Shown here in pieces: positions 15,257 through 59,237 of a stretch of DNA of 64,000 bases (within the stretch, counting starts at the first letter, position 1; the number at the start of each line of letters is the position of its first letter). Location of the stretch: the NCBI RefSeq assembly GCF_030814995.1, contig NZ_JAUSVX010000014.1:124001-188000 (forward strand). The letters run 5' to 3'. The notes beneath the pieces were generated by a model, which had not been told where the DNA came from, ran no database searches, and saw only the letters and a program-made list of their open reading frames with translations. Both the position numbers and the translations under genes were made by a program. Source of the DNA: Labrys wisconsinensis. GTDB lineage: Bacteria; Pseudomonadota; Alphaproteobacteria; Rhizobiales; Labraceae.

Positions 15257-15610
15257 GGGGCAGGCGGTCAAAGCTTTCGTGTGCTCGCCGCGCACACGAA
15301 AGTCCTGATAGTCCCTCGCGATAACGTCGCCTTCCATCTCGCTCACCCTGAACTGAGCCTGATTCTTGTGTCTCACCCAAAGGGTGCAGTCCACGCAAGA
15401 CTGGGGAGATTCGACAACTTCGCAGATCCAGGAACAGCCGATGCCATATCGTGGCGGCAGAGCTTTGATCCAGGTCGGAGTTTATCGGGTACGCTCTCCC
15501 CTCATCTTATTATCGCCGACCCAGCCAATATGGCCGGTCGAATTAGGCTTTCTGCAATGGCGCTCCGGCCATAACGCGTCGTGTCGTCGCCGTCTGCGCA
15601 GGGGACTTCC
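15257..15610. other. intergenic region before the GGDEF gene
   Basis: There are 354 bases without a supported gene, AT-richer than its surroundings after the hairpin. Short overlapping frames between 15281 and 15720 have no family resemblance and conflict with the next gene. It presumably holds the diguanylate cyclase promoter. Confidence 0.4.
15274..15302 (+). terminator. hairpin after the agt-like gene
   Basis: CTTTCGTGTGC (15274-15284) pairs perfectly with GCACACGAAAG (15292-15302) around a 7-base loop, 18 bases after the stop. It has no T-run, so it may act as a weak terminator or as an mRNA 3'-end stabiliser. Confidence 0.65.
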
Positions 15611-16822: not shown

Positions 16823-17013
16823 GACCTCATGTGGGCGTTTCAGGGTCAAGGGTTGAATTGGGTGTTGCATAGATCGAGCTTGCGCCCGTGATCGAGATGC
16901 TCGCGCCGATCGAGTTCCGGCCGGTCGATGCCTTCACGCTCAACGCAGCGATCACGCCTGCGGCCGGTGACATGACGCGGCGCCGCAATGCCGTGCTTGA
17001 CGCCGGGACGGAC

Positions 17014-17904: not shown

Positions 17905-17938
17905 GGCGTCCGCGGCACCCGTCCGCCGGGGTTGCTGG

Positions 17939-43616: not shown

Positions 43617-44624
43617 ATGCAGATCGAAAAGCCTTACTTGATGTTCATCGGCGACGTTCACGACCAGCTCGCCGCCAAGACCGCCGCCGGCATCGTCGAC
43701 TGGCGGCGCGACTGGTGCGTCGGCCAGCTGCGCCTGCCCGGCTGCAAGGCCGACCTCGGGCTGGAGGACATCGGCATCGAGGAGGGCAGGGCCCGCGGCG
43801 CCCGGACCATGGTCGTCGGCGTGGTCAATGCCGGCGGCGTGCTGCCGGAGCATTGGGTGCGCTCGATCGTCGAGGCGCTCGAGGCCGGGATGGACATCGC
43901 CTCCGGCCTGCACAAGCGCCTGGAGGATGTGCCCGAGATCGCCGAGGCGGCCCGCCGGCACGGCCGCCAGCTCCATGATGTCCGCATCCCTTCGCAGACC
44001 TTCGCCACCGGCAAGGGCACCAAGCGCTCGGGCATGCGCCTGCTCGCCGTGGGCACGGACTGTTCGGTCGGCAAGAAATACACCGCGCTGGCACTGGAGA
44101 AGGAGATGCGGGCGCAGGGCTTCGACGCCGACTTCCGCGCCACCGGCCAGACCGGCATCTTCATCTCCGGGCGCGGGGTCGCGGTCGACGCCGTCGTGGC
44201 GGACTTCATCTCCGGCGCGGCGGAATGGCTGACGCCCGACGCCGCGCCCGACCATTGGGACGTGGTGGAAGGGCAGGGCAGCCTGTTCCACCCCTCCTTC
44301 GCCGGCGTGACGCTCGGCCTGCTGCACGGCTCGCAGCCCGATGCCTTCGTCGTCTGCCACGAGCCGACGCGCAAGACCATGCGCGGCGTCGCCCATCCCC
44401 TGCCGACCATTCGCCAGGTGATCGACCTCACGGTGGCCTGCGGCCGGCTGACCAATCCGCGCATCCAGTGCGTCGGCATCTGCGTCAACACCCAGGCGCT
44501 GGGCGAGGCCGAGGCGAAGGCCTATCTCGCCGAGATCGCCGCCGCCGAGGGCCTGCCGGCGACCGATCCGGTCCGCTTCGGCACGGCCGAGATCGTCAGG
44601 CGGCTGAAGGCGGTGTTCGGCTGA
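43617..44624 (+). CDS. dgcN: DUF1611 family protein, DgcN-like D-glutamate N-acetyltransferase
   Basis: A 335-residue protein of DUF1611. A P-loop-like segment VGTDCSVGKKYTAL lies near residue 145 and GQTGIFISGRG near 180. Members were long of unknown function; DgcN, which N-acetylates D-glutamate for racemisation by DgcA, belongs here. The DgcA-like gene at 35622 supports the role. The usual dgcN-dgcA operon is split here by about 7 kb and lies on the same strand. The ATG at 43617 lacks a strong ribosome site. Confidence 0.78.
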   Translation: MQIEKPYLMFIGDVHDQLAAKTAAGIVDWRRDWCVGQLRLPGCKADLGLEDIGIEEGRARGARTMVVGVVNAGGVLPEHWVRSIVEALEAGMDIASGLHKRLEDVPEIAEAARRHGRQLHDVRIPSQTFATGKGTKRSGMRLLAVGTDCSVGKKYTALALEKEMRAQGFDADFRATGQTGIFISGRGVAVDAVVADFISGAAEWLTPDAAPDHWDVVEGQGSLFHPSFAGVTLGLLHGSQPDAFVVCHEPTRKTMRGVAHPLPTIRQVIDLTVACGRLTNPRIQCVGICVNTQALGEAEAKAYLAEIAAAEGLPATDPVRFGTAEIVRRLKAVFG

Positions 44625-44734
44625 GGTGTCGTGGCGCGCCGGGCAGGAGCCGGCACGCCGCGTGCAGAAGGGCACAGCGTCCGGGTGAGAGAAGGGCTAC
44701 GACGAGGCAAGTTCATCCCATTGCGGGGGCCGGC

Positions 44735-46438
44735 ATGCTGCAGCACCTCAAGCTCGGGTTCGGTGTTCTCGTGCTGCTCTGCGCCCTGGCGTCGCCGGCC
44801 TCCGCCGCCAGGCTCGCCCTGGTCATCGGCAACGACGACTACGTCTCGGTGACCCGGCTCGAGCGAGCGGTGGCCGACAGCCAGGCCCTGCGCACGGCCC
44901 TGGAGAAGCTCGGCTTCAACGTGACGCTCGCCGACAATCTCGACTTCAAGGCCATGACCCGCACCATCGCGGAGTTCGAAGCGAAGATCGCTCCCGGCGA
45001 CGAGGTCGTGTTCGAGTTCTCCGGCCACGGCGTCGCCATCGACGGGCGCAACTACCTCCTGCCCGTCGACGTCGAGCAGCCGCAGGCCGGCGGCGAGGCC
45101 GAGATCAAGAGCTTCGGGCGCGATGCCGGCCAGCTCGTCGATGATCTCAGGGCCAAGGGGCCGAAGCTGGTCTTCGCCATCCTGGATGCCTGCCGCGACA
45201 ATCCGTTCCAGAGCGCCAGCCGGTCGATCGGCTCCTCGCGCGGCCTGGCGCGGATGGACCCGGACCCCGGCGCCTTCATCCTGTTCTCCGCCGGCCCGGG
45301 CGAGGAGGCTCTGGACCGGCTGGGCACCGGCGACAAGGAGGCGACCTCGGTCTTCACCCGCGTCCTGCTCAAATATCTCGACATGCCCGGCATCACCCTG
45401 CAGAAGCTGGCCAAGCTGACCCAGGGCGAGGTGAGCCGGCTGGCGGGCACCGTCGGCCACACCCAGTTCCCCGACTATTTCGACCGCACTGTGGACGAGC
45501 CGAGCCTCTCGGTCGCGGTCTGCACCGCCAGCCCCGCCAACGCCTATGTCGGCACCTGGGGCAATACCGATCCGCAGTCCGGGGTCGATCGCACCATCGT
45601 CATCCGCCAGAGCTGCCAGTCCGGCCGCACGCTCTACACGTTCGAGGAGAGCTGGGCCTGCCGGCAGCAACAGCAGCCGTGCCACCTCGGCACGCGCCCG
45701 GCCCGGCTCATCGAGAAGACCGGCGAGCTCGTGGTCGACGGCGTGATGAAGGATACGATCACCACGTTCAAGCTGAAGCTCTCCGGCCCGGACGCCATGA
45801 AGGTCGACATCGTCTCCGTGTTCACCGACGACAGCGGCCGCGACCCGCGCAAGGCCTCCCACGACTATGTCCGCCGGCCGGAAGGAGCCGTGGCCACCGC
45901 CGGGCCGGCTCCGGCTCCGGCCCCGCCGACGCCCAGCGTAGCCGCCGCTCCCGTCTCCGCGCCGCCGGTGCCGAGCGTCCCCGCCGCTCCCGTTTCCGCG
46001 CCGCAGCCTGCGCCGACGCCGCGCCTGGCCGACGCCGTGCAGACCCCGGCCGCCCAGGTCGCGACAGCGGTCGCGCCGGTCGTCGGATGCGACCGCTCGC
46101 ATCTGGCGGGCCTGTGGCGCAATGCCGACCCGCATGCCCGCTCGATCGTGCGCCTCCTGATCACCAGCCAATGCGACGGCGGCCGGCCGAGCTACAGCGT
46201 CGAGGCCTGGGGCGCCTGCCGTCCCGTCGCCTGCGACTGGGGCATGGCGCCGGGGGTCTACGACGTGCCGAGCGGCCAGCTCAACATTCGCCACGTCTCG
46301 CCTTTCGCCGTCAGCACGCTCAACCTGCGTCCGGCCGGCGGCGACGCGCTCGACCTCACCCGGTCCACGGTGTTCGTCGACAGGAGCGGCCGCTCGCCCT
46401 TCTCCAGCGACGACGTGCTGGTCCGGGCGGCGAACTGA
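44735..46438 (+). CDS. caspase-like (peptidase C14) exported protein with duplicated C-terminal domain
   Basis: A 567-residue protein with a signal peptide (about residues 1-25, ASPASAAR), then a caspase p20 domain (about 26-250). The dyad is His98 (FSGHG) and Cys153 (DACRDNPF). Two related domains of about 110 residues follow (about 270-390 and 450-567), sharing a W-N-x-DP start and paired cysteines (SWAC...C and AWGAC...C), joined by a Pro/Ala-rich linker. The target is unknown. GC content is normal for the window, unlike the TPR-caspase gene at 5008. It converges with the AraC-type regulator gene. Confidence 0.85.
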   Translation: MLQHLKLGFGVLVLLCALASPASAARLALVIGNDDYVSVTRLERAVADSQALRTALEKLGFNVTLADNLDFKAMTRTIAEFEAKIAPGDEVVFEFSGHGVAIDGRNYLLPVDVEQPQAGGEAEIKSFGRDAGQLVDDLRAKGPKLVFAILDACRDNPFQSASRSIGSSRGLARMDPDPGAFILFSAGPGEEALDRLGTGDKEATSVFTRVLLKYLDMPGITLQKLAKLTQGEVSRLAGTVGHTQFPDYFDRTVDEPSLSVAVCTASPANAYVGTWGNTDPQSGVDRTIVIRQSCQSGRTLYTFEESWACRQQQQPCHLGTRPARLIEKTGELVVDGVMKDTITTFKLKLSGPDAMKVDIVSVFTDDSGRDPRKASHDYVRRPEGAVATAGPAPAPAPPTPSVAAAPVSAPPVPSVPAAPVSAPQPAPTPRLADAVQTPAAQVATAVAPVVGCDRSHLAGLWRNADPHARSIVRLLITSQCDGGRPSYSVEAWGACRPVACDWGMAPGVYDVPSGQLNIRHVSPFAVSTLNLRPAGGDALDLTRSTVFVDRSGRSPFSSDDVLVRAAN

Positions 46439-47488: not shown

Positions 47489-48559
<1,071 letters not shown>

Positions 48560-48563
48560 GCGT

Positions 48564-49430
48564 TCAGGCCCTGAGCAGATCGACGATCGCCGGCCCCTCC
48601 AGCGGGTTCAGCTCGGCCTCGATCTGCCGGACCTCGTTCGTCAGCGTGGACACGAGGACGGGAAGCCGGTCCTGGCTGAGACGGGCGCTGGTCATGTTGA
48701 TGGCGATGGCGGCCACGGCATCGCGGCCGCGAGGCAGGATCGGAACCGCCAGGGCGGAAATCCCCGCGACCAATGCGCCCTCGTCCACGCTGTAGCCCCG
48801 CTCGCGAATGATCGGAAGGGACTGGCGCACGCGGTCGGCCGTAAGCCCGTCGTAGCGCTGATAGAGGGGGGCGTTGGTCTCGATGACGACGTCGGCCTCG
48901 GCCGAAGGCAGGAAAGCCAGGATGGCCTGGCTGGCGGGACCGACGCCCATGGGAATCTGGCCGCCGACATGACCGGTCAGGCTATCGATGACATAGGTGC
49001 CCTGCTGGCGGTCGACGCACACCGTGTTGAATCCGGCGCGCGCCATCAGGAACACGGTGTCGCCTGTCTCGGCGGAAAGCCGCATCAGCGCCGGACGGGC
49101 CAGGCGGCGCAAGCCGGTGCCGTCGGCCGCCGTGGCGCCCATCGCGAAGAGCGCCAGGCCCAGGCGATAGCGCTTCGTCTGGCGTTCGCGATCGATCAGG
49201 CCGTGTCGTTGCAAGGCTGTCACGATGCGATGCGCGGTCTGCTGCTTGAGGCCGAGCGCCTCGCCGATCGCGGCGATGGTCGCGCCCTGCTGGCCGACGC
49301 CGCCCAGGTGCTTCAGGATCGCCACGCCTCGATCGAGAGCCTGGGTGCCGGTCGCGGACTCCGTCTCCGAGCCGCGCTTGGGCTGCCTGCTCTCGGGAAG
49401 GGCATCGAGAGGGGGTGTCCGAGGAGGCAT
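48564..49430 (-). CDS. IclR-family transcriptional regulator of the catabolic island
   Basis: A 288-residue regulator. A winged HTH (about residues 35-95, IAAIGEALGLKQQTAHRIV) follows a 30-residue polar tail, then an IclR effector domain (about 110-285). AGGAGG lies 7 bases before the ATG at 49430, and the MmgE/PrpD stop is 3 bases upstream, so the two share an operon. Two operator-like palindromes in the divergent promoter at 50858-50903 are its probable sites, giving autoregulation of this operon and control of the dehydrogenase/importer operon. Confidence 0.88.
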   Translation of the reverse strand: MPPRTPPLDALPESRQPKRGSETESATGTQALDRGVAILKHLGGVGQQGATIAAIGEALGLKQQTAHRIVTALQRHGLIDRERQTKRYRLGLALFAMGATAADGTGLRRLARPALMRLSAETGDTVFLMARAGFNTVCVDRQQGTYVIDSLTGHVGGQIPMGVGPASQAILAFLPSAEADVVIETNAPLYQRYDGLTADRVRQSLPIIRERGYSVDEGALVAGISALAVPILPRGRDAVAAIAINMTSARLSQDRLPVLVSTLTNEVRQIEAELNPLEGPAIVDLLRA

Positions 49431-49432
49431 GG

Positions 49433-50794
49433 TCACGCCTCCTGACAGGCCGGGAGGAGGGAGGCTTCGCCCAACGGGGCGCTCAAGGCGCTCATCAACG
49501 AGTCGATCTCCGCTTGGTGATTCAGCGCCAGTATAGTCGCCTTCAGGCGCGCCGCAGCCGGCTCCGACAGGTTCGGCCCGGCGAGGGCCCGGAACTTCTC
49601 TTCCTGCTGTCCGATGGAGAGCGGGTTCGTCGGCTCGCCCTTGGGCGCCGGGACCGCCAGGCTCCGTGCTCCATGCGTGGAGGTCATTGTCACCCGCGCC
49701 GGAACCATCGCCGGGAACGCCGTCTCATAGGCAGGATCGACCGTCAGCCGGATGCGTGCGGCCAAAGCCAGGACCTGCGCATCTGCAAGGTGCGCCTCCT
49801 GCATCGGCAGCAGCGCGCCGGCGCCTCGAACCAGCGCGAGCGCGACGCAGAATGGAATGCTGTACTGTGCCGCCTCAAGGCTCGCGGGGGCGGGGTCGTT
49901 GGGGAGCATGAGCGCGCGCGGGAAGGTCGCCACCTCGATATGCCTGATCGCCTCGGTGGCGATGGCATGGTCCGCCTGCAGCGCCAGCGCTGCGTCTATG
50001 GCGGCGTGCGCCCATCGGCAGCAACTGTAGAGCTTGAAATAGATCCCTTCGATCGCCCAGCCGCGACCGAGGTCGCGGGTCATCCTCGCCGGATCATAGC
50101 GGCGTGCATCGTCGAGCACGTCGACCGGGCCGGTGAAGCCGGCGGCCGCCAGGTCCACCGCGGCCAATCCGCTGGCCGTCGACCAGGCGATGCCTTCCTT
50201 CACGGTGTTGCCGACGCTGCTCCAGCCGGCGGCGCTGAGCCCCGGAGCGCTCGTCCCGGCGATCGCGAGCGCCTGGACCAGGACATCCGGGGCGAGGCCG
50301 CGCAGCCATCCGGCGGCCGCCGCCACGGCGTAGCTGCACCATAGGCCGCTGTCGGTCGTCCGGAGCGTGTCGAAATCCCGCGCCGCGGCCACGCGGACGC
50401 CGACCTCATAGCCGATGGCGATGGCGGTCAGCAGCCGGTCGGCGCCGGCTCCCACGGCTTGCGCCGTCGCGAGCGCTGCCGGGATCACCGCCGCGCCGGG
50501 ATGGCCGGCGGCCGCTCGGTGACCGTCATCCAGATCGAGCATCGAGCCGTAGGCGGCATTGACGAAGGCCGCGCCGGGCGGCGTCAGCCGGTCGGCCGAA
50601 AACCAGACGTGGGCAGGACCCACGCCCCAGGAGGTGACGGCGGCCCGCCGCGCCGCCGCGCCGCTTCGCGTCACCGCACCGGCGATTGCCGCCCCGACGA
50701 GATCGAGAACGGCTCGGGTCGCAGCCATGCGAACCGCTGGCGGCGTGGCCTGGATGCTTCGGACATGGGCCGCAAATTGGAATGCTGTCGTCAT
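49433..50794 (-). CDS. MmgE/PrpD family protein
   Basis: A 453-residue protein with the all-helical N-terminal half (DLDDGHRAAAGHPGAAVIPAAL, part of a longer match, near residue 85) and the smaller C-terminal domain of the family. Members include 2-methylcitrate dehydratase, cis-aconitate decarboxylase and iminodisuccinate epimerase. The epimerase role fits best with the amine dehydrogenase and amino-acid importer next door, but this is inference. AAGGAAAAGTG precedes the ATG at 50794. It begins the minus-strand operon with the IclR gene. Confidence 0.85.
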   Translation of the reverse strand: MTTAFQFAAHVRSIQATPPAVRMAATRAVLDLVGAAIAGAVTRSGAAARRAAVTSWGVGPAHVWFSADRLTPPGAAFVNAAYGSMLDLDDGHRAAAGHPGAAVIPAALATAQAVGAGADRLLTAIAIGYEVGVRVAAARDFDTLRTTDSGLWCSYAVAAAAGWLRGLAPDVLVQALAIAGTSAPGLSAAGWSSVGNTVKEGIAWSTASGLAAVDLAAAGFTGPVDVLDDARRYDPARMTRDLGRGWAIEGIYFKLYSCCRWAHAAIDAALALQADHAIATEAIRHIEVATFPRALMLPNDPAPASLEAAQYSIPFCVALALVRGAGALLPMQEAHLADAQVLALAARIRLTVDPAYETAFPAMVPARVTMTSTHGARSLAVPAPKGEPTNPLSIGQQEEKFRALAGPNLSEPAAARLKATILALNHQAEIDSLMSALSAPLGEASLLPACQEA

Positions 50795-50857
50795 CACTTT
50801 TCCTTCTCGGTCGCACGATCTCGTCCAGCGAGCCACCGAGGCTCATATAGCCTAAAA

Positions 50858-50903
50858 AATCACATTGTGGGTTAAAAACTTGATTGACACCCACAATGTG
50901 GGT
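50858..50903. promoter_or_regulatory. paired operator palindromes, probable IclR-regulator sites
   Basis: ACCCACAATGTGGGT (50889-50903) is a perfect 15-bp palindrome. AATCACATTGTGGGT (50858-50872) is the same site with two mismatches in its left arm. Their centres are 31 bp apart, about three helical turns, so two dimers could bind one DNA face or form a loop. They sit between divergent operons, one of which encodes an IclR regulator. Confidence 0.82.
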
Positions 50904-50912
50904 TCTTATCGT
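50884..50912 (+). promoter_or_regulatory. sigma-70-type promoter of the dehydrogenase/importer operon
   Basis: TTGACA (50884-50889), a 17-base spacer and TATCGT (50907-50912). The perfect operator palindrome fills most of the spacer, so the bound regulator would block RNA polymerase. Predicted transcription starts near 50919, about 50 bases before the first ATG. Confidence 0.65.
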
Positions 50913-50967
50913 TCTTGCAACACCATCGCAAGGCCCGTCCCGCACTCTCGTCGGAAGCTGCACGCCC

Positions 50968-51279
50968 ATGGCCATCGCCACGCAATTCCGGCGCATCGCG
51001 GCGCCTCCCCGCGCAGGGGTCGCCTGCGCGGTCGATGGCGAGGCCGTCTACGCGTTCGAAGGCGATACCGTGCTGACGGCGGTGCTCACCCATCGCCGCA
51101 ACCTCCGCGCCTTTGAATTCGGCGCGGCGGAGCGGTCCGGTTTCTGCCTGATGGGAGCGTGCCAGGATTGCTGGGTGCAGCGGGCCACCGGAGAGCCGGT
51201 GCGAGCCTGCACGACGCTGGTGGAACCGGGCATGTGCATCGTCACCCGGCGGCCGGAGCGATGTGATGACATCAGGTGA
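50968..51279 (+). CDS. 2Fe-2S subunit of a three-part amine/amino-acid dehydrogenase
   Basis: A 103-residue ferredoxin-like subunit (HcnA / hydroxyproline dehydrogenase gamma type). Four cysteines in FCLMGACQDCWV...RACTT bind the cluster. Such subunits pass electrons between two flavin subunits and the respiratory chain. The ATG at 50968 is used because the earlier in-frame TTG lies within the promoter. Its stop overlaps the start of the next gene by 14 bases. Confidence 0.85.
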   Translation: MAIATQFRRIAAPPRAGVACAVDGEAVYAFEGDTVLTAVLTHRRNLRAFEFGAAERSGFCLMGACQDCWVQRATGEPVRACTTLVEPGMCIVTRRPERCDDIR

Positions 51280-52648
51280 AATCGTCATCGTCGGAGCCGG
51301 GCCGGCCGGGATGCGAGCGGCGATCACGCTCGCCCGGGCCGGGAGACGGCCGATCGTGTTGGACGAGGCGCCGAGCTCCGGCGGGCAGGTCTATCGTCGG
51401 CCCCCGCCGGCGATCCGGCGCGACGCGGGGGCGCTCTATGGTTTCGAGGGCCGGCGCGCCACGGAATTGCACCGGGCGTTCGATGTCCTGAAGGGCGATA
51501 TCGACTATCGGCCTGGAACGCTGGTCTGGAACGCCACCGACACGCGGCTGCACCTGCTCGCAGAGGGGCGTTCCAGGACCCAGTCATGGGGGCGCATCAT
51601 CCTGGCGCCTGGGGCGATGGACCGGATCGTCCCGCTGCCGGGGTGGACCCTGCCGGGTGTCTACACGCTCGGCGGCGCGCAGGTCGCGCTGAAGGCGCAG
51701 GCTGTGGGCATCGGCGCCCGCGTGGTCTTCTTCGGCACCGGACCGCTGCTGTATCTCGTCGCCTGCCAGTATGCCAAGGCTGGCATCGACGTGCGGGCGG
51801 TCCTCGACACCGCGCCCGGGCTGGCCTCGCTCGAAGCGTTGCCGGGGTTGATCCGGGGCGGCCGCACCTTTCTCAAGGGGCTGCACTACGTGTCGTGGCT
51901 GAGGATGCGGGGCGTGCGGATTGCCAGCGGCGTCCGGCCCGTCGAAATCGGAGCGGGCGCGGACGGGGCGGTCTCGGGTTTCCGCTTCGAGCGGCCCGGC
52001 GGGCGCGAGGCGTTCGTCGAATGTGACGCGATTGGCTTCGGCTTCGGCCTGAAGTCCGAGACCCAGCTGGCCGATCTGCTCGGCCTCGACTTTGCCTTCG
52101 ATCATCGGCAGCGGCAGTGGCTGCCGGTCCAGGATGCGGACGGCCGCGGCTCGGTGCCGGGAGTTTACCTCGCCGGCGACGGGGCACGTGTCCGCGGCGC
52201 CGATGTTGCCGAGCTGGCCGGCGAACGCGCGGCCCTGGCGGTGCTGGCCGATGAAGGCGAGGGCGCTCACCGCTCCCGGATGGCCGCGCTCGGCGCCCGC
52301 ATTGCCAGGGCCGAGCCGTTTCGGCGCGCGCTCGACGAGATCGCCTTCCCGTTCCCGGTCGAGCTGGCGCGCGAGGTGCCTGGCGACGTCATGGTCTGCC
52401 GGTGCGAAGGCATCGATGCCAAGACCATTCGCAACGTCGCCGCTGCGAGCGGAACGGTCGACATCAACCGCTTGAAGGCCTTCACGCGCCTGGGGATGGG
52501 CCGTTGCCAGGGGCGCGTTTGCGCACCGGCCGCCACGGAGATTCTCGCCGCGGCCGCCGGCGTTCCCGTTGAAGCCGTCGGCAGGCTGCGCGGACAGGCG
52601 CCGATCAAGCCGATGCCGCTGTCGGCTCTGGCGGAGGCGTCGTCATGA
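51266..52648 (+). CDS. FAD/NAD-type subunit of amine dehydrogenase (OoxA/HcnB-like)
   Basis: A 460-residue flavoprotein. The N-terminal FAD motif is VGAGPAGMRAA (about residue 8); the second nucleotide fold has FFGTGPLLYLVA near 155. The C-terminus carries a BFD-like 2Fe-2S domain (CRCEG near 380 and GMGRCQGRVCAP near 412). This is the alpha subunit of opine oxidases, HCN synthase and D-hydroxyproline dehydrogenase. Starts at 51263 (GTG) or 51266 (ATG); GGAG upstream suits the ATG. The stop overlaps the next gene. Confidence 0.87.
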   Translation: MTSGEIVIVGAGPAGMRAAITLARAGRRPIVLDEAPSSGGQVYRRPPPAIRRDAGALYGFEGRRATELHRAFDVLKGDIDYRPGTLVWNATDTRLHLLAEGRSRTQSWGRIILAPGAMDRIVPLPGWTLPGVYTLGGAQVALKAQAVGIGARVVFFGTGPLLYLVACQYAKAGIDVRAVLDTAPGLASLEALPGLIRGGRTFLKGLHYVSWLRMRGVRIASGVRPVEIGAGADGAVSGFRFERPGGREAFVECDAIGFGFGLKSETQLADLLGLDFAFDHRQRQWLPVQDADGRGSVPGVYLAGDGARVRGADVAELAGERAALAVLADEGEGAHRSRMAALGARIARAEPFRRALDEIAFPFPVELAREVPGDVMVCRCEGIDAKTIRNVAAASGTVDINRLKAFTRLGMGRCQGRVCAPAATEILAAAAGVPVEAVGRLRGQAPIKPMPLSALAEASS

Positions 52649-53838
52649 CCGTCTTCGATGCGGCCATCATCGGCGGCGGCCTGGCCGGGTGCTCGGCGGC
52701 GCTGCATCTCAGCCTGCGTGGAGCCTCGGTCGTCCTGTTGGAGCGCGGGCTCTGCGGTGCCCAGGCCAGCGGCGTCAACTATGGCGGTGTTCGCCAGCAG
52801 GGGCGCCATCCCGCGGAATTGCCGCTGTCGCGGCGCAGCCGCGAGATCTGGGGACGGATGCCGGCGCTGATCGGCACGGACTGCGAATTCGCCATGACCG
52901 GCCACCTGAAGCTCGCCCTCACCGACCGGCAGATGACCGAACTCGTGACCTATCGGGATACGGCCGAGGCCTTCGGCCTCGCGCTCGAGCTGATCAGCCG
53001 CGATGCGCTCCAGCGTCGCTATCCCTATCTCGGCGGCGGCCTGGCCGGCGGATCGCTCTGCGCCGAGGACGGTCAGGCCAATCCGCGCCTCGTTGCGCCG
53101 GCCTTCGCCCGCGCTGCCCGCCGCGCCGGAGCCGATATCCGGGAGAACGCCGAAGTCAGCGGCGCCTGGCCCGACGGCGATGGCTTCGGCCTGCGTGTCG
53201 GCGGCGCGGCTGAGCCGGTTCGAGCGCTGAGGTTGATCAACGTCGCCGGCGCCTGGGGCGCGAAAGTCGCCTCCTGGTTCGGCGATGCGGTCGACGAAGG
53301 CGTGATCGCGCCGAACATGTGCGTCACCGAACCCCTGCCGGTGTTCATGGGACCCAATCTCGGCGTGTGCGGCGGCGGCATCTACCTGCGTCAGGTCCCG
53401 CACGGCAGCGTCATCTTCGGAGCCGGGCTCGGCGTGGCCGACCGCGACCGGTCCAGGGCCCGGCCTCTGGGCGAGGTGACGTGCGAGGCAGCCCGTTTGG
53501 CGATCGACATGGTGCCGAGGCTCGCCCAGGCGCTGCTGGTGCGAACCTGGACGGGCATCGAGGGCTGCATGCCCGACGGCCTGCCGGTGATGGGACCCAG
53601 CCCAAGCACGCCGGGGCTCTTTCACGCCTTCGGCTTTTCCGGACATGGCTTTCAGCTGGGTCCCGGCGTCGGAGCCGTTCTGGCCGAGTTGGCTCTGGAC
53701 GGGACGACGCCGACGCCGATCGACGGGCTCTCGATCTCCCGATTCCATCCGGCACGCAGCGATCAGGGAAGAAGCCCGATGGCTCGAAGCGGTCCGGACG
53801 GTGGCATGCAAGACCGACAAGACAACCAGGGGAACTGA
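52645..53838 (+). CDS. DAO-type FAD oxidoreductase, catalytic subunit (OoxB/HcnC-like)
   Basis: A 397-residue D-amino-acid-oxidase-fold enzyme. GGGLAGCSAALHL near residue 9 binds FAD; the substrate-site region lies around 230-320 and GFSGHGFQLGPGVG near 333 is the C-terminal FAD contact. It should oxidise the C-N bond of an amino acid, imino acid or opine and hand electrons to the two preceding subunits. The C-terminal 25 residues are polar and run to the SBP gene, whose ATG is one base past this stop. Confidence 0.87.
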   Translation: MTVFDAAIIGGGLAGCSAALHLSLRGASVVLLERGLCGAQASGVNYGGVRQQGRHPAELPLSRRSREIWGRMPALIGTDCEFAMTGHLKLALTDRQMTELVTYRDTAEAFGLALELISRDALQRRYPYLGGGLAGGSLCAEDGQANPRLVAPAFARAARRAGADIRENAEVSGAWPDGDGFGLRVGGAAEPVRALRLINVAGAWGAKVASWFGDAVDEGVIAPNMCVTEPLPVFMGPNLGVCGGGIYLRQVPHGSVIFGAGLGVADRDRSRARPLGEVTCEAARLAIDMVPRLAQALLVRTWTGIEGCMPDGLPVMGPSPSTPGLFHAFGFSGHGFQLGPGVGAVLAELALDGTTPTPIDGLSISRFHPARSDQGRSPMARSGPDGGMQDRQDNQGN

Positions 53839-53839
53839 C

Positions 53840-54724
53840 ATGACGATCTTCAGCGAGCTGAAACATACGGTCGCGGCCGCAACGGTCCTCGGCCTCCTGA
53901 CCGGAGGGGCTCCGGCGGTCGCCGACGACGCCTACAGGCTGGTCGAGCCCGGCGTTCTGACGGTGGCCATCACCGGCGACATGCCGGGCCTGGTGGCGCG
54001 TGACGGCAAGCTGGTCGGCTATGACGGCGACATCCTCCAGATCGCCGCCGACAAGCTGGGTTTGAAGATCAAGCCCGTGCCGACGGAGTGGTCCGGCGCG
54101 ATTGCGGCGGTGCAGGCCGGCCGCGTCGATCTCATCGGCGGCAATGTCGCCTGGACCGAACAGCGTGCGGCCGCCCTGTCGCTGACCGACCCGACCGGAT
54201 ACTTCCAGAACGGCATCACGCAGAAGGCCGGGTCGGATTGGCATACGCTGGCGAGCCTCGAGAACAGGAAGGTCGGCTCGATGACCGGCTTCTCCTTCCT
54301 GCCCGAGCTGCGCAAGATACCGGGGCTGGAGCTCAACCTCTACGACTCCACGGACGCCGCCCTGCGCGACTTGATGTCCGGCCGGATCGAAGCCATGGTC
54401 GGCGACCCACCCGTCATCGACTATGCGATCGTCCAGAATCCGTCCTGGGGGCTGCGGAACACTCCGTTCACCGACAACAATCAGGACTTTCCGCTCCTGA
54501 CCGGCATCGGGCGGCAATATGTCTTCGGCGTGAGCAAGGACAACAAGGCCCTTGCCGACGCGCTCAGCGCCGAGATCCGCAAATTGTGGGACACCTGCCA
54601 GGTGAAGGAGATCGGCAGACGCTACGGCAACATCAACAAGGCCAATTACACCCCTTCGCCGGACAACTTCCGGGTCGGCGTGGATCGGCCGCAGGGCTGG
54701 GCGCCCCCCGCATGTCCGCAGTGA
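53840..54724 (+). CDS. amino-acid ABC transporter substrate-binding protein (SBP_bac_3)
   Basis: A 294-residue periplasmic protein with a signal peptide (cleavage near PAVADD, residue 29) and the two-lobe family 3 fold (LTVAITGDMPGLVARDG, VQAGRVDLIGGNVAWTEQRA, part of a longer match). AGGGGAACTG precedes the ATG. Family 3 proteins bind polar amino acids or opines, in line with the dehydrogenase just upstream. The transporter genes follow. Confidence 0.9.
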   Translation: MTIFSELKHTVAAATVLGLLTGGAPAVADDAYRLVEPGVLTVAITGDMPGLVARDGKLVGYDGDILQIAADKLGLKIKPVPTEWSGAIAAVQAGRVDLIGGNVAWTEQRAAALSLTDPTGYFQNGITQKAGSDWHTLASLENRKVGSMTGFSFLPELRKIPGLELNLYDSTDAALRDLMSGRIEAMVGDPPVIDYAIVQNPSWGLRNTPFTDNNQDFPLLTGIGRQYVFGVSKDNKALADALSAEIRKLWDTCQVKEIGRRYGNINKANYTPSPDNFRVGVDRPQGWAPPACPQ

Positions 54725-54804
54725 TCGCTGTGGCTCCAAACCGGACGCCCGGTCGGCAGCCTGCGTGCCGACCGGGAGCCGATTGTACAACCAGGAGGAT
54801 GGCG

Positions 54805-55593
54805 ATGGCATCCGAACCCCTGCTGTCCGTTCGCGGCCTGCGCAAGAGCTATGGGGCGCACGAGGTGCTCAGAAGCGTCTCGTTCAACCTCGATCGTGGC
54901 GAGCGGGTCGCCATCATCGGTCCCAGCGGCTCGGGCAAATCGACCTGCCTGCGCGCCATCAACTATCTCGAACCGCCGATCGGCGGGGAGATCCGCCTGA
55001 ACGGCGAGCTGATCGGTCGGCGTGCCGGGCGCCGCGGCGGGGATCGGCGGATGACCGATGCGGAACTGGCCCCGCAGCGGGCGCAGATCGGCATGGTGTT
55101 CCAGCTCTTCCATCTCTGGCCGCATCTCACGGTCCGCGAGAACGTCGCATTGCAGCCGCACAAGGTCCAGGGGCTGAGCGCTGCCGAGGCTTTCGAGCGG
55201 GCCGATGCCATGCTGGCCAAAGTCCATCTCCTCAACAAGAGCGACGACTATCCCAGCCGGCTGTCCGGGGGCCAGCAGCAACGCGTCGCCATTGCCCGCG
55301 CCCTGGCGCAGGCACCGGCGTTGCTGCTGTTCGACGAGCCGACCTCGGCGCTCGATCCGGAACTGGTGGGAGAAGTCCTGACGGTGATCCAGGAGCTTGC
55401 CGCCGAGGGGCGGTCCATGCTCCTCGTCACACATGAGATCGCGTTCGCCCGCGAGGTCGCCGACCGGGTGATCTTCATGGACGGCGGCGTCATCGTCGAG
55501 GAGGGGCCGGCGCGCGCCGTGCTCGACGATCCCCGGGAGCCGCGTTTGCGCCGCTTCCTGCAGCTCGTCGCCCATTCCGGGGAGGCGGCATGA
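54805..55593 (+). CDS. polar amino-acid ABC transporter ATP-binding protein
   Basis: A 262-residue GlnQ/HisP-type ATPase: Walker A GPSGSGKST, signature LSGGQQQRVAIARAL, Walker B LLLFDEPTSALDPE. A charged insert RRAGRRGGDRRMTDAEL follows strand 4, as in the opine/histidine subgroup. AGGAGG six bases before the second ATG (54805) decides the start over 54799. The stop overlaps the first permease gene by 4 bases. Confidence 0.9.
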   Translation: MASEPLLSVRGLRKSYGAHEVLRSVSFNLDRGERVAIIGPSGSGKSTCLRAINYLEPPIGGEIRLNGELIGRRAGRRGGDRRMTDAELAPQRAQIGMVFQLFHLWPHLTVRENVALQPHKVQGLSAAEAFERADAMLAKVHLLNKSDDYPSRLSGGQQQRVAIARALAQAPALLLFDEPTSALDPELVGEVLTVIQELAAEGRSMLLVTHEIAFAREVADRVIFMDGGVIVEEGPARAVLDDPREPRLRRFLQLVAHSGEAA

Positions 55594-56237
55594 CCCAGGC
55601 TCCCTTCTCCCGCATCGCCGAGGCGCTGCTGACCGGCGCATGCGTCACCCTGCAGGTTTCGGCGGGCGCGCTGGCGGTCGCCGTCTGTCTCGGGCTGCTG
55701 CTGGCTTCGCTCGGCGTTCTCCGCCCGGCACGATCGGTCCGGATCATCATCGCCGCCTATGTCGAGATCTTTCGCAACATCCCGAGCTTGACGCACCTGT
55801 TCCTCATCTATTTCGGGCTTGCCTATCTGGGGCTGCGGTTGACGTCGCTCACCGCTGCCGTCCTCGGCCTGGGATTGATCGGTGGCGCCGTTCTCGCCGA
55901 CGTGTTTCGCGCCGGCCTGCAAGCCGTGCCGGCCGGGCAGTGGGAGGCTGCGCTGGCGATCGGCCTGTCCCCCTTCAAGGCCTTCCGCCTCGTCATTCTG
56001 CCTCAGGCCTGGCGGATCAGCCTGCCGCCGCTGGGCAACTATGCCATCGGCCTCGTCAAGGACACCTCGCTCGTCGCGGCGATCGCTGCGCCCGAGATCA
56101 TGTTCAACGCCCGGCAGATCGTGAACGAGACCTTCGAGACGGCGCTGGTCTACGGCTCCGCGGCGCTGATCTATCTCGTCATCACCTTTGGTCTCAGCTG
56201 GCTTCTCGCCGTCGTCGAACGCAAGGCGGCCTATTGA
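55590..56237 (+). CDS. amino-acid ABC transporter permease 1
   Basis: A 215-residue HisM/HisQ-type permease with five helices. The EAA loop that contacts the ATPase is near residue 130 (EAALAIGLSPFKAFRLVILPQA, part of a longer match). It begins in the ATPase stop and ends one base before the next permease ATG, so the subunits are made together. Confidence 0.9.
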   Translation: MTQAPFSRIAEALLTGACVTLQVSAGALAVAVCLGLLLASLGVLRPARSVRIIIAAYVEIFRNIPSLTHLFLIYFGLAYLGLRLTSLTAAVLGLGLIGGAVLADVFRAGLQAVPAGQWEAALAIGLSPFKAFRLVILPQAWRISLPPLGNYAIGLVKDTSLVAAIAAPEIMFNARQIVNETFETALVYGSAALIYLVITFGLSWLLAVVERKAAY

Positions 56238-56238
56238 G

Positions 56239-56976
56239 ATGACCAGCTTCTTCCAACCGATCCTGGCGAACCTCCACGACTGGGGACCGCAGCTCGTGAA
56301 GGCCAGCGGCACGACCATTCTCCTGACGCTGCTCGGCTTTGCCGCTGCATTCGCCTTGGGCCTCGCCGTCGAGTTCCTGCGCACCCGTCGATCCCCGCTC
56401 GTGCGACGGCTCGTCGATGGTTATCTCTTGATCCTGCGCGGCGTGCCCATCCTCGTCGTCCTCTACCTGCTCTATTTTGCGCTGCCTGGCATCGGCGTCA
56501 CCTTGCCGGCTCTCGTCGCGGGCGTCCTGGGCCTCGGGCTGGTCTACAGCGCCTACCTCGCCGAGGTGTTTCGTGCCGGCCTGCAATCGGTGCCCAGGGG
56601 CCAGCGCGAAGCCGCGCTCGCCGCCGGGCTCACGCCCGCTCAAACCTTTCGGCTGGTGCTGTTTCCGCAAGCCGTCCGCGCGGTTCTGCCGCCTCTGCTG
56701 ATCAGCCTGGTCTCCCTGCTCAAGGACAGCTCGATCTGCGCCCTCATCACGGTGCCCGAGCTCACGCTCACCTCGCGAGCCATCATGTCGGAGAGCTTCC
56801 TTCCCCTGCAGATCTTCGCGCTCACCGGCCTGTTCTATTTCATCATCGCCTGGCCGGCTTCGCTGGCGGTGCGGGCGCTCGAAAGGCGCCTGCAGCGCGG
56901 CCGCGCGCCGGGCCGGCGCCCCGCTCGACCGAGCCGGATGGCGACCGGCGCCGTCACCCTGGCCTCGGACAAATGA
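56239..56976 (+). CDS. amino-acid ABC transporter permease 2
   Basis: A 245-residue permease of the same family as its neighbour; the EAA loop is near residue 130 (REAALAAGLTPAQTFRLVLF). It has an additional basic C-terminal tail of about 25 residues. The two permeases form the heterodimeric pore. It closes the importer genes; the Ntn-hydrolase gene follows 39 bases later. Confidence 0.9.
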   Translation: MTSFFQPILANLHDWGPQLVKASGTTILLTLLGFAAAFALGLAVEFLRTRRSPLVRRLVDGYLLILRGVPILVVLYLLYFALPGIGVTLPALVAGVLGLGLVYSAYLAEVFRAGLQSVPRGQREAALAAGLTPAQTFRLVLFPQAVRAVLPPLLISLVSLLKDSSICALITVPELTLTSRAIMSESFLPLQIFALTGLFYFIIAWPASLAVRALERRLQRGRAPGRRPARPSRMATGAVTLASDK

Positions 56977-57015
56977 CGGGGACACGCTCGATTTCAGCGG
57001 AGCACGGAAAGCGTG

Positions 57016-58083
57016 ATGCCCAGAAATCCCATTCCGATCCTTGTGCTCCGCGGCCGGCCCTTCGAGCGTGGCGGTCGGCACGGCGAGGCGTTCGCGGCTG
57101 AGATACAGCGAGCGCTGGGCCGATCGAAGGACACCTCGAGCCGCAAGGCCTACGAAGCCGCCCGCGGGCGGGCCGCGCATTCGTGGCCGCTTCTCGAGGA
57201 ATGCGCCCCCGAAATCGCCATGGAGGTGCAGGGGCTCGCGGAAGGCTCGTCCAGCGACGTGACGGACCTCTATCTGCGCATCGGCTTCGAGTTCTTTGTC
57301 GATGCTGCGCCCACGGGCTGCAGCGGCATCGCGATCGCCGGCCCGAACGGTGCGGTCATCGGCCAGAACTGGGATGCGCCACCCGAGGATGCCGTCGACC
57401 TTGCCCTTGTCCTGCACGCCGGTGAGGCCGGCGTCGAAACGGCAATGGTGGCGTCGGTCGGCACCCTGGGCTGGGTTGGCTGCAATCGCTCCGGATTGGC
57501 CTTGTCGACCAATGATCTGATCCTCGACGCCATTCCCTGCGGCCTGCCGAGCCAGGTCGTCCGCCGCCTTGCGCTGGACCAGGCGAGCGTGCCGGCCGCA
57601 ATTGGCGCCTTGCGTTCCCTGCCGAACATGGGCGGGCGCTGCTATCTGCTCGGCGACGCTGCGGGAGCGATCGCCGGCGTCGAGATCTCGCCCTCGGTGG
57701 GCGTCAGCGCGATGGCGGCGACCTCACCGATCCTTCATACCAACCATGCCCGCCTGCCGGAGACCGCCGTCGTCGAGGATGAGGCGCGGCTGCAGGCCGT
57801 CTACCCGTCCAGTCGAAGCCGCCTCGCTGCGCTGGAACGCCTTGCAGACGGTGCCCGCACCGTCGCCGACGTCATGGCCGTCCTGCGCAATCGCGACGGT
57901 GCGCCGAACGCGATCTCGAAAACCCCATCCAAGGAAGAGAAGACCGAGACGGCGTTCTCGATCGTGTTCGATTGCGCGGCTGCCGAAATCCATCTCTGCG
58001 CCGGCCCACCGTCGACGGGTGTTTACCAGACCGTCCGATTGTCCGATCCGGAGCGGCGCGTCGAGCCGCCGCCTCGTCCGTGA
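57016..58083 (+). CDS. C45-family Ntn-hydrolase (acyl-CoA:6-APA acyltransferase-like)
   Basis: A 355-residue protein of the penicillin acyltransferase-like (peptidase C45) family. The likely self-cleavage and nucleophile site is Gly101-Cys102 in APTGCSGIAI, close to Gly102-Cys103 of the fungal enzyme; the following GQNWD segment is also conserved. Bacterial members hydrolyse amide bonds of N-acyl amino acids or related compounds. As last gene of the importer operon it may trim an acyl group from the imported substrate. Starts at 57013 (GTG) and 57016 (ATG) are nearly equivalent. Confidence 0.82.
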   Translation: MPRNPIPILVLRGRPFERGGRHGEAFAAEIQRALGRSKDTSSRKAYEAARGRAAHSWPLLEECAPEIAMEVQGLAEGSSSDVTDLYLRIGFEFFVDAAPTGCSGIAIAGPNGAVIGQNWDAPPEDAVDLALVLHAGEAGVETAMVASVGTLGWVGCNRSGLALSTNDLILDAIPCGLPSQVVRRLALDQASVPAAIGALRSLPNMGGRCYLLGDAAGAIAGVEISPSVGVSAMAATSPILHTNHARLPETAVVEDEARLQAVYPSSRSRLAALERLADGARTVADVMAVLRNRDGAPNAISKTPSKEEKTETAFSIVFDCAAAEIHLCAGPPSTGVYQTVRLSDPERRVEPPPRP

Positions 58084-58220
58084 CCGCGCGGCGCTTCCGC
58101 GCATCAGTCCGGCTCGGAGTCGAGCCCTGCCGTCGTCTCGCGCTTTTGTGACCGCGCCCGCCCTGTCTGGGCTGAAAGCGCCGCCCTATCCTGCCGAGGA
58201 CGCCGATGCAGGAGCAGGCC

Positions 58221-59078
58221 ATGAACCAGGACTACATCGACCTCTACGATCGCTTCACCCATGGCGGCATGAGCCGCCGGTCCTTCCTGGACCGGCTGGC
58301 GGCGATGGCCGGCGGCACCGCCGCCGCCACCGCCCTGCTCGCGGTGCTGCAGAACGACTATGCCAGGGCCGAGACCGTGGCCGAGGCGGACGAGCGCATC
58401 GTGGCCGAGAGCTGGGCCGTGCCCGGCGGCCCGGCGGGCCTGTCGGGCTACCTCGTGCGGCCCAAGGCCGGCGGCCGGCCCGGCACCGTCCTGGTGGTGC
58501 ACGAGAATCGCGGCCTCAACTCGCACATCAAGGATGTCACGCGCCGGGTCGCGGTCGCAGGCTTCGTGGCGCTCGGCCTCGACTATCTCAGCCCGCTCGG
58601 CGGCACGCCGGCCGACGAGGACAAGGCCCGCGACATGATCGGCACGCTGAAGCCCGAGGACATCATCGCGTCCTCCAAGGCGGCCGCCGCGGCCCTGCGC
58701 GCGCGTCCCGACGGCAACGGCAAGGTCGGCGCGGTCGGCTTCTGCTGGGGCGGGGGCGCCGTGAACCAGCTCGCGGTCGCCGACCCCGCGCTCAACGCCG
58801 GCGTCGCCTATTACGGCATGCAGCCCAAGGCCGAGCAGGTGCCGGCGATCAAGGCGCCGCTGCTGCTGCACTACGGCGCCCTCGATGAGCGCATCGATGC
58901 CGGCATTCCAGCCTTCGAGGCGGCGCTGAAGGCCGACAACAAGGCCTACCAGATCTTCGTCTACGAGGGCGCCAACCACGCCTTCAACAACGATACCGGC
59001 GGGGCGCGCTACAACAAGGCGGCTGCCGATCTCGCCTGGCAGCGCACCATCGACTTCCTCAAGACCAACCTCGCCTGA
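58221..59078 (+). CDS. dienelactone hydrolase family protein with Tat-like signal
   Basis: A 285-residue alpha/beta hydrolase. A twin-Arg segment SRRSFLDRLAAMAGG (about residues 18-32) suggests Tat export. The DLH triad is visible: Cys175 in GFCWGGG, Asp near 225 (LDERID), His near 255 (GANHAF). The substrate is unknown; exported DLH proteins are widespread. GGAGCAGG precedes the ATG at 58221; a start five codons earlier is possible. It stands alone. Confidence 0.87.
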   Translation: MNQDYIDLYDRFTHGGMSRRSFLDRLAAMAGGTAAATALLAVLQNDYARAETVAEADERIVAESWAVPGGPAGLSGYLVRPKAGGRPGTVLVVHENRGLNSHIKDVTRRVAVAGFVALGLDYLSPLGGTPADEDKARDMIGTLKPEDIIASSKAAAAALRARPDGNGKVGAVGFCWGGGAVNQLAVADPALNAGVAYYGMQPKAEQVPAIKAPLLLHYGALDERIDAGIPAFEAALKADNKAYQIFVYEGANHAFNNDTGGARYNKAAADLAWQRTIDFLKTNLA

Positions 59079-59237
59079 GGCGAGCGCCGCTCTCCTTTGT
59101 GCCGCTTGCGGGAACTTTCCACATCGACAGAGCGTTGATCCTGCAAGTTTCGCCCAAGTCGACCGGAAAAGGGCGTATGATGCGGCCGCGGCACCGATGG
59201 TGTTCGCGGCCTGGACGATGAGATGGAGGAGGGCATC

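Follow-up and report, generated by a model that had tools for sequence, protein, structure and literature searches.

The window, a 64,000-nucleotide stretch of Labrys wisconsinensis DNA, carries a ten-gene island that we judge, with a probability of roughly 60%, to be an opine-type catabolic regulon, whose predicted products would import an amide-bearing, opine-like amino compound, cleave its amide and oxidize its C–N bond. The gene families, their synteny, the distribution of an operator and the insertion of the island are the established part of this reading.

Organization and insertion of the island

Open reading frames and profile searches place genes for an IclR-family regulator and an MmgE/PrpD-family enzyme divergent from genes for an HcnABC-type dehydrogenase, a PAAT importer and a C45 hydrolase. 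The sequence-only reading had described nine genes in two divergent operons; its families and coordinates hold, whereas the number of genes is ten. The features are as follows.

48553..59236, segment missing at the equivalent position of four congeners (approximate ends)
48564..49436, minus strand, IclR-family regulator (PF01614/PF09339)
49433..50794, minus strand, MmgE/PrpD-family enzyme, 453 amino acids (PF03972, PF19305)
50859..50871, weaker operator copy, two mismatches to CCCACAWTGTGGG (pattern search)
50890..50902, perfect operator CCCACAATGTGGG, the sole perfect genomic match to YCCAYAWTRTGGR
50968..51279, plus strand, HcnA/OdhC-like [2Fe-2S] gamma subunit, C-x4-C-x2-C-x12-C (PF13510 and motif)
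51263..52648, plus strand, HcnB/OdhA-like alpha subunit, FAD fold and BFD-type [2Fe-2S] domain (PF07992, PF04324, PF17806)
52645..53838, plus strand, HcnC/OdhB-like catalytic beta subunit of the DAO family, R-x-W at residue 300 (PF01266, tree, motif)
53840..54724, plus strand, family-3 (PAAT) solute-binding protein, amino-acid clamp with TEQR and MVGD (PF00497, AncQR alignment)
54799..55593, plus strand, amino-acid-type ABC ATPase (PF00005 on 54847–55590; start from the open reading frame)
55590..56237, plus strand, first PAAT permease (PF00528; TIGR01726 over cut-off)
56239..56976, plus strand, second PAAT permease (PF00528; TIGR01726 over cut-off)
57013..58083, plus strand, C45 autoproteolytic Ntn-hydrolase/acyltransferase, Cys103 in TGC (NF040521, 2x1d alignment)
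58206..59078, plus strand, dienelactone-hydrolase-like gene within the inserted segment (open reading frame; named by eye)

Four adjacent gene pairs of the island overlap by 4–17 bp, and the widest intergenic gap in the plus-strand operon is the 74 bp between the binding-protein and ATPase genes. Comparison with four congeners reveals that about 10.7 kb (48,553–59,236) is missing at the equivalent site of each; the island is a block inserted at a single site of the genome. Relatives of the island were absent from the 18 pattern stretches examined on viral contigs.

Conservation in other genomes and plasmids

The same arrangement was found again in other genomes and plasmids, which indicates that the island is more than a chance grouping. 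Among 23 loci with a close IclR (30 IclR loci minus seven, L074 and L076–L081, whose IclR identity does not exceed 42%), MmgE is present in 21, the HcnC subunit in 16 and C45 in 11, with C45 outside the fetched stretch at 12 loci and MmgE at two, some stretches ending early. Among the matches listed (30 of 78 plasmid records for C45, 40 of 313 for MmgE and 60 of 165 for the dehydrogenase), the plasmids carrying C45 at an identity of at least 40% are exactly those carrying MmgE at an identity of at least 50% (n = 11). Linkage of MmgE/PrpD, C45 and dehydrogenase elsewhere was a check set beforehand, and it held in both the plasmids and the IclR loci. Locus L013, with stops in its reading, was excluded from alignments.

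A census of 394 Rhizobiaceae genomes, scored on the best four or five candidates per genome, located the HcnC clade in three, and in each of these MmgE and C45 share its contig. The clade is absent from three of the six genomes with C45 and four of the seven with MmgE, and thus parts of the island also live apart; one of those four MmgE genomes (G476) has a version of the island with a different FAD enzyme. No orthologous island to which a substrate has been assigned turned up in our searches, and a literature search covering papers available without subscription yielded no published account that we recognized as describing it.

A shared operator

Two operator copies, one perfect and one degenerate, lie 31 bp apart in the divergent promoter region (50859–50902), in agreement with the earlier description of divergent operons around a shared promoter with paired operators. 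The 8.93-Mb genome holds 35 matches to YCCAYAWTRTGGR, one perfect and 34 with a single mismatch, versus nine for the reversed pattern. In descriptive counts, made with a motif generalized from the same loci and with limits of one mismatch and 150 bp set post hoc, the operator precedes HcnA in 23 of 23 cases, MmgE in 27 of 30 (paralogs included, such as the L049 MmgE at 41%) and C45 in 13 of 18. Shuffled control palindromes reached at most 10, 13 and 9 for these three genes, respectively. Under the same limits no operator was found upstream of alr (0/16), hyp387 (0/16) or the binding-protein gene (0/18).

All 13 C45 genes with an operator are separate from the dehydrogenase operon. The operator-less cases include the window and L072, where C45 sits within the operon, as well as L049 and L054, where the operator is absent within 150 bp of C45. 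Although the C45 gene of the window has no operator of its own, it is probably read together with the operon, because only 36 bp separate it from the preceding permease gene. The presence of the operator upstream of HcnA, MmgE and C45 argues that C45 is most likely a member of the regulon. Linkage elsewhere and the operator distribution together support the original suggestion that uptake, amide cleavage and C–N oxidation belong to one regulon.

The presumed regulator is 60–72% identical in alignments to its counterparts at six rhizobial plasmid loci; its best NCBIfam match is BhcR, far under the BhcR cut-off. IclR would act at the paired operators between MmgE/PrpD and HcnA and thereby control both divergent operons.

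A distinct clade of trimeric dehydrogenases

The available text of PMC4575208 characterizes the OpnDH family by ADP-binding motifs in the alpha and beta subunits, C-x4-C-x2-C-x11-12-C in gamma, an Arg-x-Trp (FMN) motif in beta and an alpha-subunit motif printed as C-x-C-x15-20-C-x4-C. GxGxxG ADP-binding motifs are present in HcnB and HcnC of the island, and the HcnA cysteines (C-x4-C-x2-C-x12-C) fit the gamma motif. The beta subunit carries R300-T-W302 in the window and R-x-W-T-G in 20 of 22 island rows. These motifs and the three subunits are shared with type 2 OdhABC of B. japonicum and B. thailandensis, and the gamma–alpha–beta gene order reported for B. thailandensis in the same text is also that of the island. 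However, the alpha subunit HcnB reads C-x-C-x33-C-x4-C, with a PF04324 match and a spacing longer than the printed x15-20, and the beta subunit stands apart from its nearest type-2-like relatives.

Specifically, the 22 island HcnC rows form their own clade (98/97), separate from three type-2-like and two NoxB-like rows that were labelled by gene context, characterized opine dehydrogenase sequences not being among the rows. HcnC thus falls within neither a type 1 nor a type 2 opine dehydrogenase clade as labelled in this tree. Identity to the beta subunits of opine-type regions is 35–40% for the second, type-2-like set and 25–27% for the first, NoxB-like set. This separation suggests that the substrate of the island may differ from that of the opine-region enzymes.

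MmgE/PrpD, C45 and the binding protein

The nearest solved structures of the island MmgE/PrpD protein are IRG1 and the iminodisuccinate (IDS) epimerase, and residues D90, H92, H98, K199 and K254 are invariant in all seven aligned rows. It resembles iminodisuccinate epimerase and cis-aconitate decarboxylase in its family profile and its first-base histidine. The epimerase uses H99 as its first base and Y145 as its second, according to the available part of PMC7347537. H99 aligns to H98 of the island, kept in seven of seven rows, whereas Y145 has no tyrosine counterpart in any of them (T, S, L, A, S, T and A in the aligned column). An iminodisuccinate epimerase role, which had been put forward at first, is not supported, because the second base is missing in every row.

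The C45 protein scores 189.4 bits against NF040521 (cut-off 85), and its G102-C103 pair is invariant in seven rows and aligned with the GC of 2x1d. It is thereby likened to the penicillin acyl-CoA:6-APA acyltransferase and the C45 family, although its kinship with that acyltransferase is by profile only. In an alignment of the binding protein with AncQR, TEQR corresponds to TEER and MVGD to VVTD; we take the Arg and Asp of these motifs to be the clamp for the alpha-carboxylate and alpha-amino groups in PAAT binding proteins.

The nearest described analogue

The succinamopine/leucinopine region of Ti plasmids (pTiEU6, pTiBo542 and pTiChry5) is the nearest described analogue, with comparable types of parts made of different proteins. 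The available text of PMC6733357 gives the pTiEU6 succinamopine region an importer, a trimeric dehydrogenase, amide or lactam hydrolases (hydantoinase/oxoprolinase and asparaginase), mmgE and LysR regulators, and does not mention C45. The combination is therefore shared, whereas the hydrolase families differ and the island has IclR in place of LysR. A LecH/SacH-type subunit with a LysR regulator was not found in the island, whose HcnC shares 35% identity with the beta subunit of pTiChry5 and groups in its own clade. Among the matches listed, the MmgE of pTiBo542 is 45% identical to that of the island, over two pieces. The earlier remark that no described pathway has this exact set calls for qualification in view of the pTiEU6 region.

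The kinship of the dehydrogenase and the occurrence of MmgE/PrpD genes in Ti-plasmid regions of opine type favour the opine-like chemistry first suggested for the island. The mmgE beside opine catabolism was ascribed to propionate use in the accessible part of the Ti-plasmid paper (PMC6733357), whereas MmgE here is tied to C–N oxidation by operator and synteny. Both the MmgE/PrpD and the C45 enzymes gain a defined pathway context. A self-contained regulon that recurs on rhizobial plasmids and in a small number of other Alphaproteobacteria suggests that these bacteria meet a particular amino compound, and the search for it is directly testable through the binding protein, the operator and the single perfect genomic site of the operator.

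Proposed pathway

As the clamp of the binding protein and the presence of a C45 gene suggest, the PAAT importer would take in an alpha-amino-acid-like, amide-bearing compound. The C45 Ntn-hydrolase would cut the amide at an early step, with the imported compound itself as its probable substrate, because importer, IclR and C45 genes are kept together in two genomes in which neither HcnABC nor MmgE is nearby. The flavin/[2Fe-2S] heterotrimer, judging from its family, would then oxidize the C–N bond, and hydrolysis of the resulting imine would yield a carbonyl and an amine. A carboxylate-bearing intermediate may be the substrate of MmgE/PrpD, whose reaction is probably of the one-base kind (isomerization, dehydration or decarboxylation).

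In the rhizobial versions, the carbonyl product would pass to a dihydroxyacetone-type kinase (DhaKL), the genes for which follow the permease by 23–31 bp on the same strand in two plasmids. In the host, C45 occupies this kinase position and a DhaKL pair is encoded elsewhere in the genome. The neighbours of the host DhaK/DhaL genes on contig C33 look ABC- and LacI-like by eye, with no island genes noticed among them, and gave no lead to the substrate. A literature search on serinol as a route to the substrate gave nothing on point in the available text of PMC10848231.

Alternative explanations

Rhizopine-type loci include linked genes for synthesis that are controlled symbiotically through NifA/sigma-54. 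It is conceivable, though unlikely, that the rhizobial loci both make and consume an opine-like compound: the operator-free half (alr, an EamA exporter, a HAD phosphatase and the Rossmann dehydrogenase hyp387) would make and export it, for example from alanine and a triose, and the operator-controlled half would import it and break it down again into alanine and dihydroxyacetone, the latter for use by DhaKL. The host of the window would retain the consuming half alone, and a hyp387 match is absent in G000. Co-occurrence is suggestive, with alr and hyp387 each at 11 of the 23 loci, the same 11 as C45, HAD at 12 and DMT at nine; C45 is also present in all five genomes in which hyp387 reaches at least 64%, and the missing operator upstream of alr and hyp387 indicates that this half is probably under separate control. 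The predicted hyp387 model is Rossmann-like with lactate/malate dehydrogenases as top matches, but the fold match is weak (TM 0.48–0.56 by query length), and a sequence search of hyp387 against the PDB gave no matches. Furthermore, neither TGT-N10-ACA (NifA) nor a strict sigma-54 motif occurs upstream of hyp387 at the 17 loci scanned (L120 excluded), C45 and MmgE have no obvious role in a simple alanine–triose opine, and the Pelagibius and Kiloniellaceae stretches carry the core without the alr/hyp387 half. Ten more genomes with a distant hyp387 (28–42%) have no C45 match at the threshold used. The larger scenario built on this idea is equally doubtful: the island would be the breakdown side of a rhizopine-like exchange not described before, in which plasmid partners with alr/hyp387/HAD/EamA make and export an amide-bearing alanine/triose opine, and carriers of IclR/PAAT/C45/HcnABC/MmgE/DhaKL, the non-maker host among them, reclaim it. 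If this were true, MmgE/PrpD would be a hitherto unrecognized core enzyme in opine breakdown.

The island might instead detoxify and salvage an antimetabolite that inhibits PLP enzymes such as alanine racemase, which C45 would inactivate by amide cleavage while alr and DMT supply a spare target and an exporter and the remaining genes recover carbon and nitrogen. Consistent with this idea, alr and the EamA exporter accompany C45 in rhizobial loci, and at L115 an importer–C45 operon and a biosynthetic cluster of the phosphonate type, which includes a PEP mutase over cut-off, run divergently. Nevertheless, an importer within a regulated catabolic operon better suits nutrition, and neither alr nor DMT lies beside the island of the window, which makes this explanation improbable. 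The host genome has one PEP mutase over cut-off, on contig C7, distant from the window.

We consider catabolism of D-hydroxyproline or another D-amino acid of the known hypO kind to be a long shot. Trimeric flavin dehydrogenases do include D-hydroxyproline dehydrogenase, as stated in the available text of PMC4575208. The alr gene is linked in rhizobia, but proline racemase is absent among the families of the window island and of the scanned rhizobial neighbours. MmgE and C45 are not known to be part of a hypO-kind hydroxyproline pathway. The HcnC tree comprised island, type-2-like and NoxB-like rows, and an unannotated pSymB stretch examined for a hydroxyproline dehydrogenase reference gave no match.

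Least probable is a loose assembly of mobile cargo, with C45 as no more than a passenger beside the dehydrogenase operon: the entire segment is missing en bloc from congeners and its parts are found separately in some genomes, but most C45 genes carry the island operator and the exceptions include the two intra-operon cases.

Further neighbourhoods bear on the main, opine-type reading. It is supported by G107, where one strand carries C45 and M24 together with an Octopine_DH-family gene and a trimeric dehydrogenase of another kind, and by S. fredii, where a Rid-family gene follows HcnC. Against it, MmgE paralogs also occur in neighbourhoods without any sign of opines (L111).

A discrete insertion

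The island comprises ten genes, in which IclR and MmgE/PrpD genes on the minus strand diverge from plus-strand genes for a heterotrimeric flavin/[2Fe-2S] dehydrogenase (HcnABC), an amino-acid-type importer and a C45 Ntn-hydrolase. The families named in the sequence-only reading are present, although that reading had counted nine genes.

Genes of the island (window coordinates)
48564-49436, minus, IclR, family match
49433-50794, minus, MmgE/PrpD, family match
50968-51279, plus, HcnA-like, family match
51263-52648, plus, HcnB-like, family match
52645-53838, plus, HcnC-like, family match
53840-54724, plus, family-3 binding protein (SBP), family match
54799-55593, plus, ATPase, family match
55590-56237, plus, permease, family match
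56239-56976, plus, permease, family match
57013-58083, plus, C45, family match

The oxidoreductase gene to the left (47522-48559) shows 80-81% identity in four congeners, in all of which the alignment picks up again after 181-250 bp at the counterpart of ORF 59223. Because the flanks align at this spacing, a segment of roughly 10.7 kb (48,553-59,236), holding the island and a dienelactone-hydrolase-like gene at 58206, is missing there. The island is a discrete insertion; GC content is 0.689 within the inserted segment versus 0.693 outside. No MmgE match was found in the four congeners at E 1e-40, and C45 searches at E 0.001 returned a 27% match in one and none in three. The dienelactone-hydrolase-like gene (58206-59078, named by eye) has an apparent twin-arginine start, and its best match, at 51-52%, lies at another site in three of the four congeners. 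An ORF left of the island (44225-46438) contains a caspase-like stretch, read by eye.

Conservation of the gene set

Across 72,556 plasmid records, the 11 plasmids with C45 of at least 40% identity are, among the matches listed, the same 11 that carry MmgE of at least 50%; they include near-copies (three Rhizobium T strains, two R. tumorigenes and two Mesorhizobium). The order IclR-MmgE // HcnABC-SBP-ATPase-permeases is maintained in R. tumorigenes, Rhizobium BG4, T136 and Sinorhizobium B11, with identities of 71-76% (IclR), 68-78% (SBP), 63-69% (HcnC), 52-54% (MmgE) and 41-45% (C45).

Scanning GTDB contigs with an IclR alignment yielded 30 loci, of which the 23 with IclR of at least 55% were retained. 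Among these 23, MmgE is carried by 21, HcnA by 16, HcnB by 17, HcnC by 16, SBP by 13 and C45 by 11. Partner genes are hyp387 (a Rossmann-like protein; 11), alanine racemase (alr; 11), a HAD phosphatase (12) and a DMT (EamA) exporter (9), with a dihydroxyacetone-type kinase (DhaKL) in 9, M24 in 5 and amidase in 5. Carriers include a Kiloniellaceae MAG and Pelagibius litoralis, where a TRAP importer adjoins HcnABC. LuxR and AHL-synthase genes lie near C45 on one plasmid (L043, 20523-21952) and near an MmgE paralog on another (L112, 13206-14848).

A census of 394 Rhizobiaceae genomes, free of IclR centring and counting its own centre, the carrier G187, gives a more mixed picture than the IclR-centred loci. 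C45 was matched in 6 genomes at E 1e-50, MmgE in 7 at 1e-95 and the HcnC clade in 3 at 1e-120. Both C45 and MmgE share a contig with HcnC in all three, and the distance from HcnC to C45 is about 8 kb twice and about 44 kb once. The remaining three C45 genomes and four MmgE genomes lack the HcnC clade.

Two of these C45 genomes (loci L114 and L115) carry IclR-SBP-permease-permease-C45 with hyp387, alr and DMT; MmgE and HcnABC are both missing from the 20 kb fetched around C45. Because the importer and C45 stand together here without HcnABC or MmgE, we infer that C45 goes with the importer and acts early. In the third (L116, 3579-10610), C45 shares one strand with genes for an M24 protein, a different trimeric dehydrogenase and a protein of the Octopine_DH family, neighbours that would link C45 independently to opine-type chemistry. 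Among MmgE genomes lacking the HcnC clade, G476 combines IclR with DhaKL, an amidase and a different FAD enzyme; in the two others inspected (L118 and L119), MmgE is the sole island gene seen, accompanied by Pot-like ABC parts.

The L115 operon diverges from a phosphonate-type cluster (13929-19393) comprising a PEP mutase above cut-off, an aminotransferase, a nucleotidyl transferase, a CDP-alcohol transferase and an asparagine-synthase-like protein. The L114 operon likewise diverges (13746-19999), from ORFs similar in size, of which the EamA exporter was the sole one scanned. In the host itself, a PEP mutase that scores above the TIGR02320 cut-off is encoded on a different contig from the island (G000:C7:343698-344510).

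A putative shared operator

In the promoter region CCCACAATGTGGG occupies 50890-50902, with a weaker copy 31 bp leftward; pairs 30-31 bp apart also occur in L042, L061, L067 and L071. The 8.93 Mb genome, in 55 contigs, has a single perfect match to the generalised operator YCCAYAWTRTGGR, at the island; 34 one-mismatch sites bring the total to 35, versus 9 for the reversed pattern.

Sites with at most one mismatch within 150 bp upstream precede HcnA in 23/23 cases, MmgE in 27/30 and C45 in 13/18, and are near zero for HAD (1/17) and IclR (1/32). None was found in that interval for alr (0/16), hyp387 (0/16), SBP (0/18), HcnC (0/22), DhaKL (0/6) or M24 (0/10). The five site-less C45 genes comprise those of the window and L072, which lie within the operon, that of L042, whose two sites lie roughly 380-410 bp upstream of its inferred start, and those of L049 and L054, with no operator site. 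Shuffled palindromes gave a mean of 0.3-0.7 matches on the HcnA, MmgE and C45 rows, with maxima of 9-13. These counts are descriptive rather than an independent test, because the motif was generalised on the same loci, yet the difference from gene to gene holds.

Another motif, TTGCAATCTA-like by eye, recurs in hyp387-alr intergenic regions (for example L045, 17087-17215) with a CATAAT-like box beyond it, which suggests that alr and hyp387 may have a separate promoter or regulator.

Comparison with opine regions

The rhizobial partners could make and export an opine-like compound that the island-type, operator-controlled genes consume. We keep this reading, improbable as it is, because alr, DMT, HAD and hyp387 accompany C45 in rhizobia without the operator, and because hyp387 is Rossmann-type and has no match in the host genome, where the same kind of query succeeds in 15 of 394 other genomes. 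The hyp387 model (mean pLDDT 78) best matches lactate/malate dehydrogenases in the PDB, at TM 0.48-0.56.

By analogy, the island itself probably works like an opine-degradation region; membership of the sac/lec or flavin-containing opine dehydrogenase (OpnDH) families is not claimed. The nearest described system found is the pTiEU6 succinamopine region, where an importer and trimeric dehydrogenases occur together with hydantoinase/oxoprolinase, asparaginase and mmgE (PMC6733357). The island differs from it in its regulator, C45 and own dehydrogenase clade.

In pTiBo542, pTiQ15/94, an A. vitis plasmid and an R. rhizogenes Ti plasmid, MmgE paralogs have hydantoinase, FAD-enzyme or ABC genes as neighbours. 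On two rhizobial plasmids they adjoin amide-/nitrile-hydrolase-type and ornithine-cyclodeaminase genes; others have neighbours with no opine-type sign. The pTiBo542 gene (L046, 11911-13244) is annotated in two pieces, beside hydantoinase A/B and an FAD oxidoreductase.

The island beta subunit is a DAO-family protein with an Arg-x-Trp motif (R300-W302 in the window), kept in 20 of 22 island rows; PMC4575208 gives this motif for opine dehydrogenases. A 39-row tree places the 22 island rows in a single clade (98/97), separate from two NoxB-like rows and from three type-2-like rows (from two Ti plasmids and from Azospirillum, labelled by their gene context). Outside the clade, Azospirillum oryzae (54%) and Burkholderiaceae (45-46%) supply the closest rows. 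Island MmgE conserves H99 of iminodisuccinate epimerase and not Y145, the proposed second base. C45 passes NF040521 (189.4 bits, cut-off 85), and its Gly-Cys aligns with that of penicillin acyltransferase. Alignment of the binding protein shows conservation of the residues that we take to be the amino-acid clamp.
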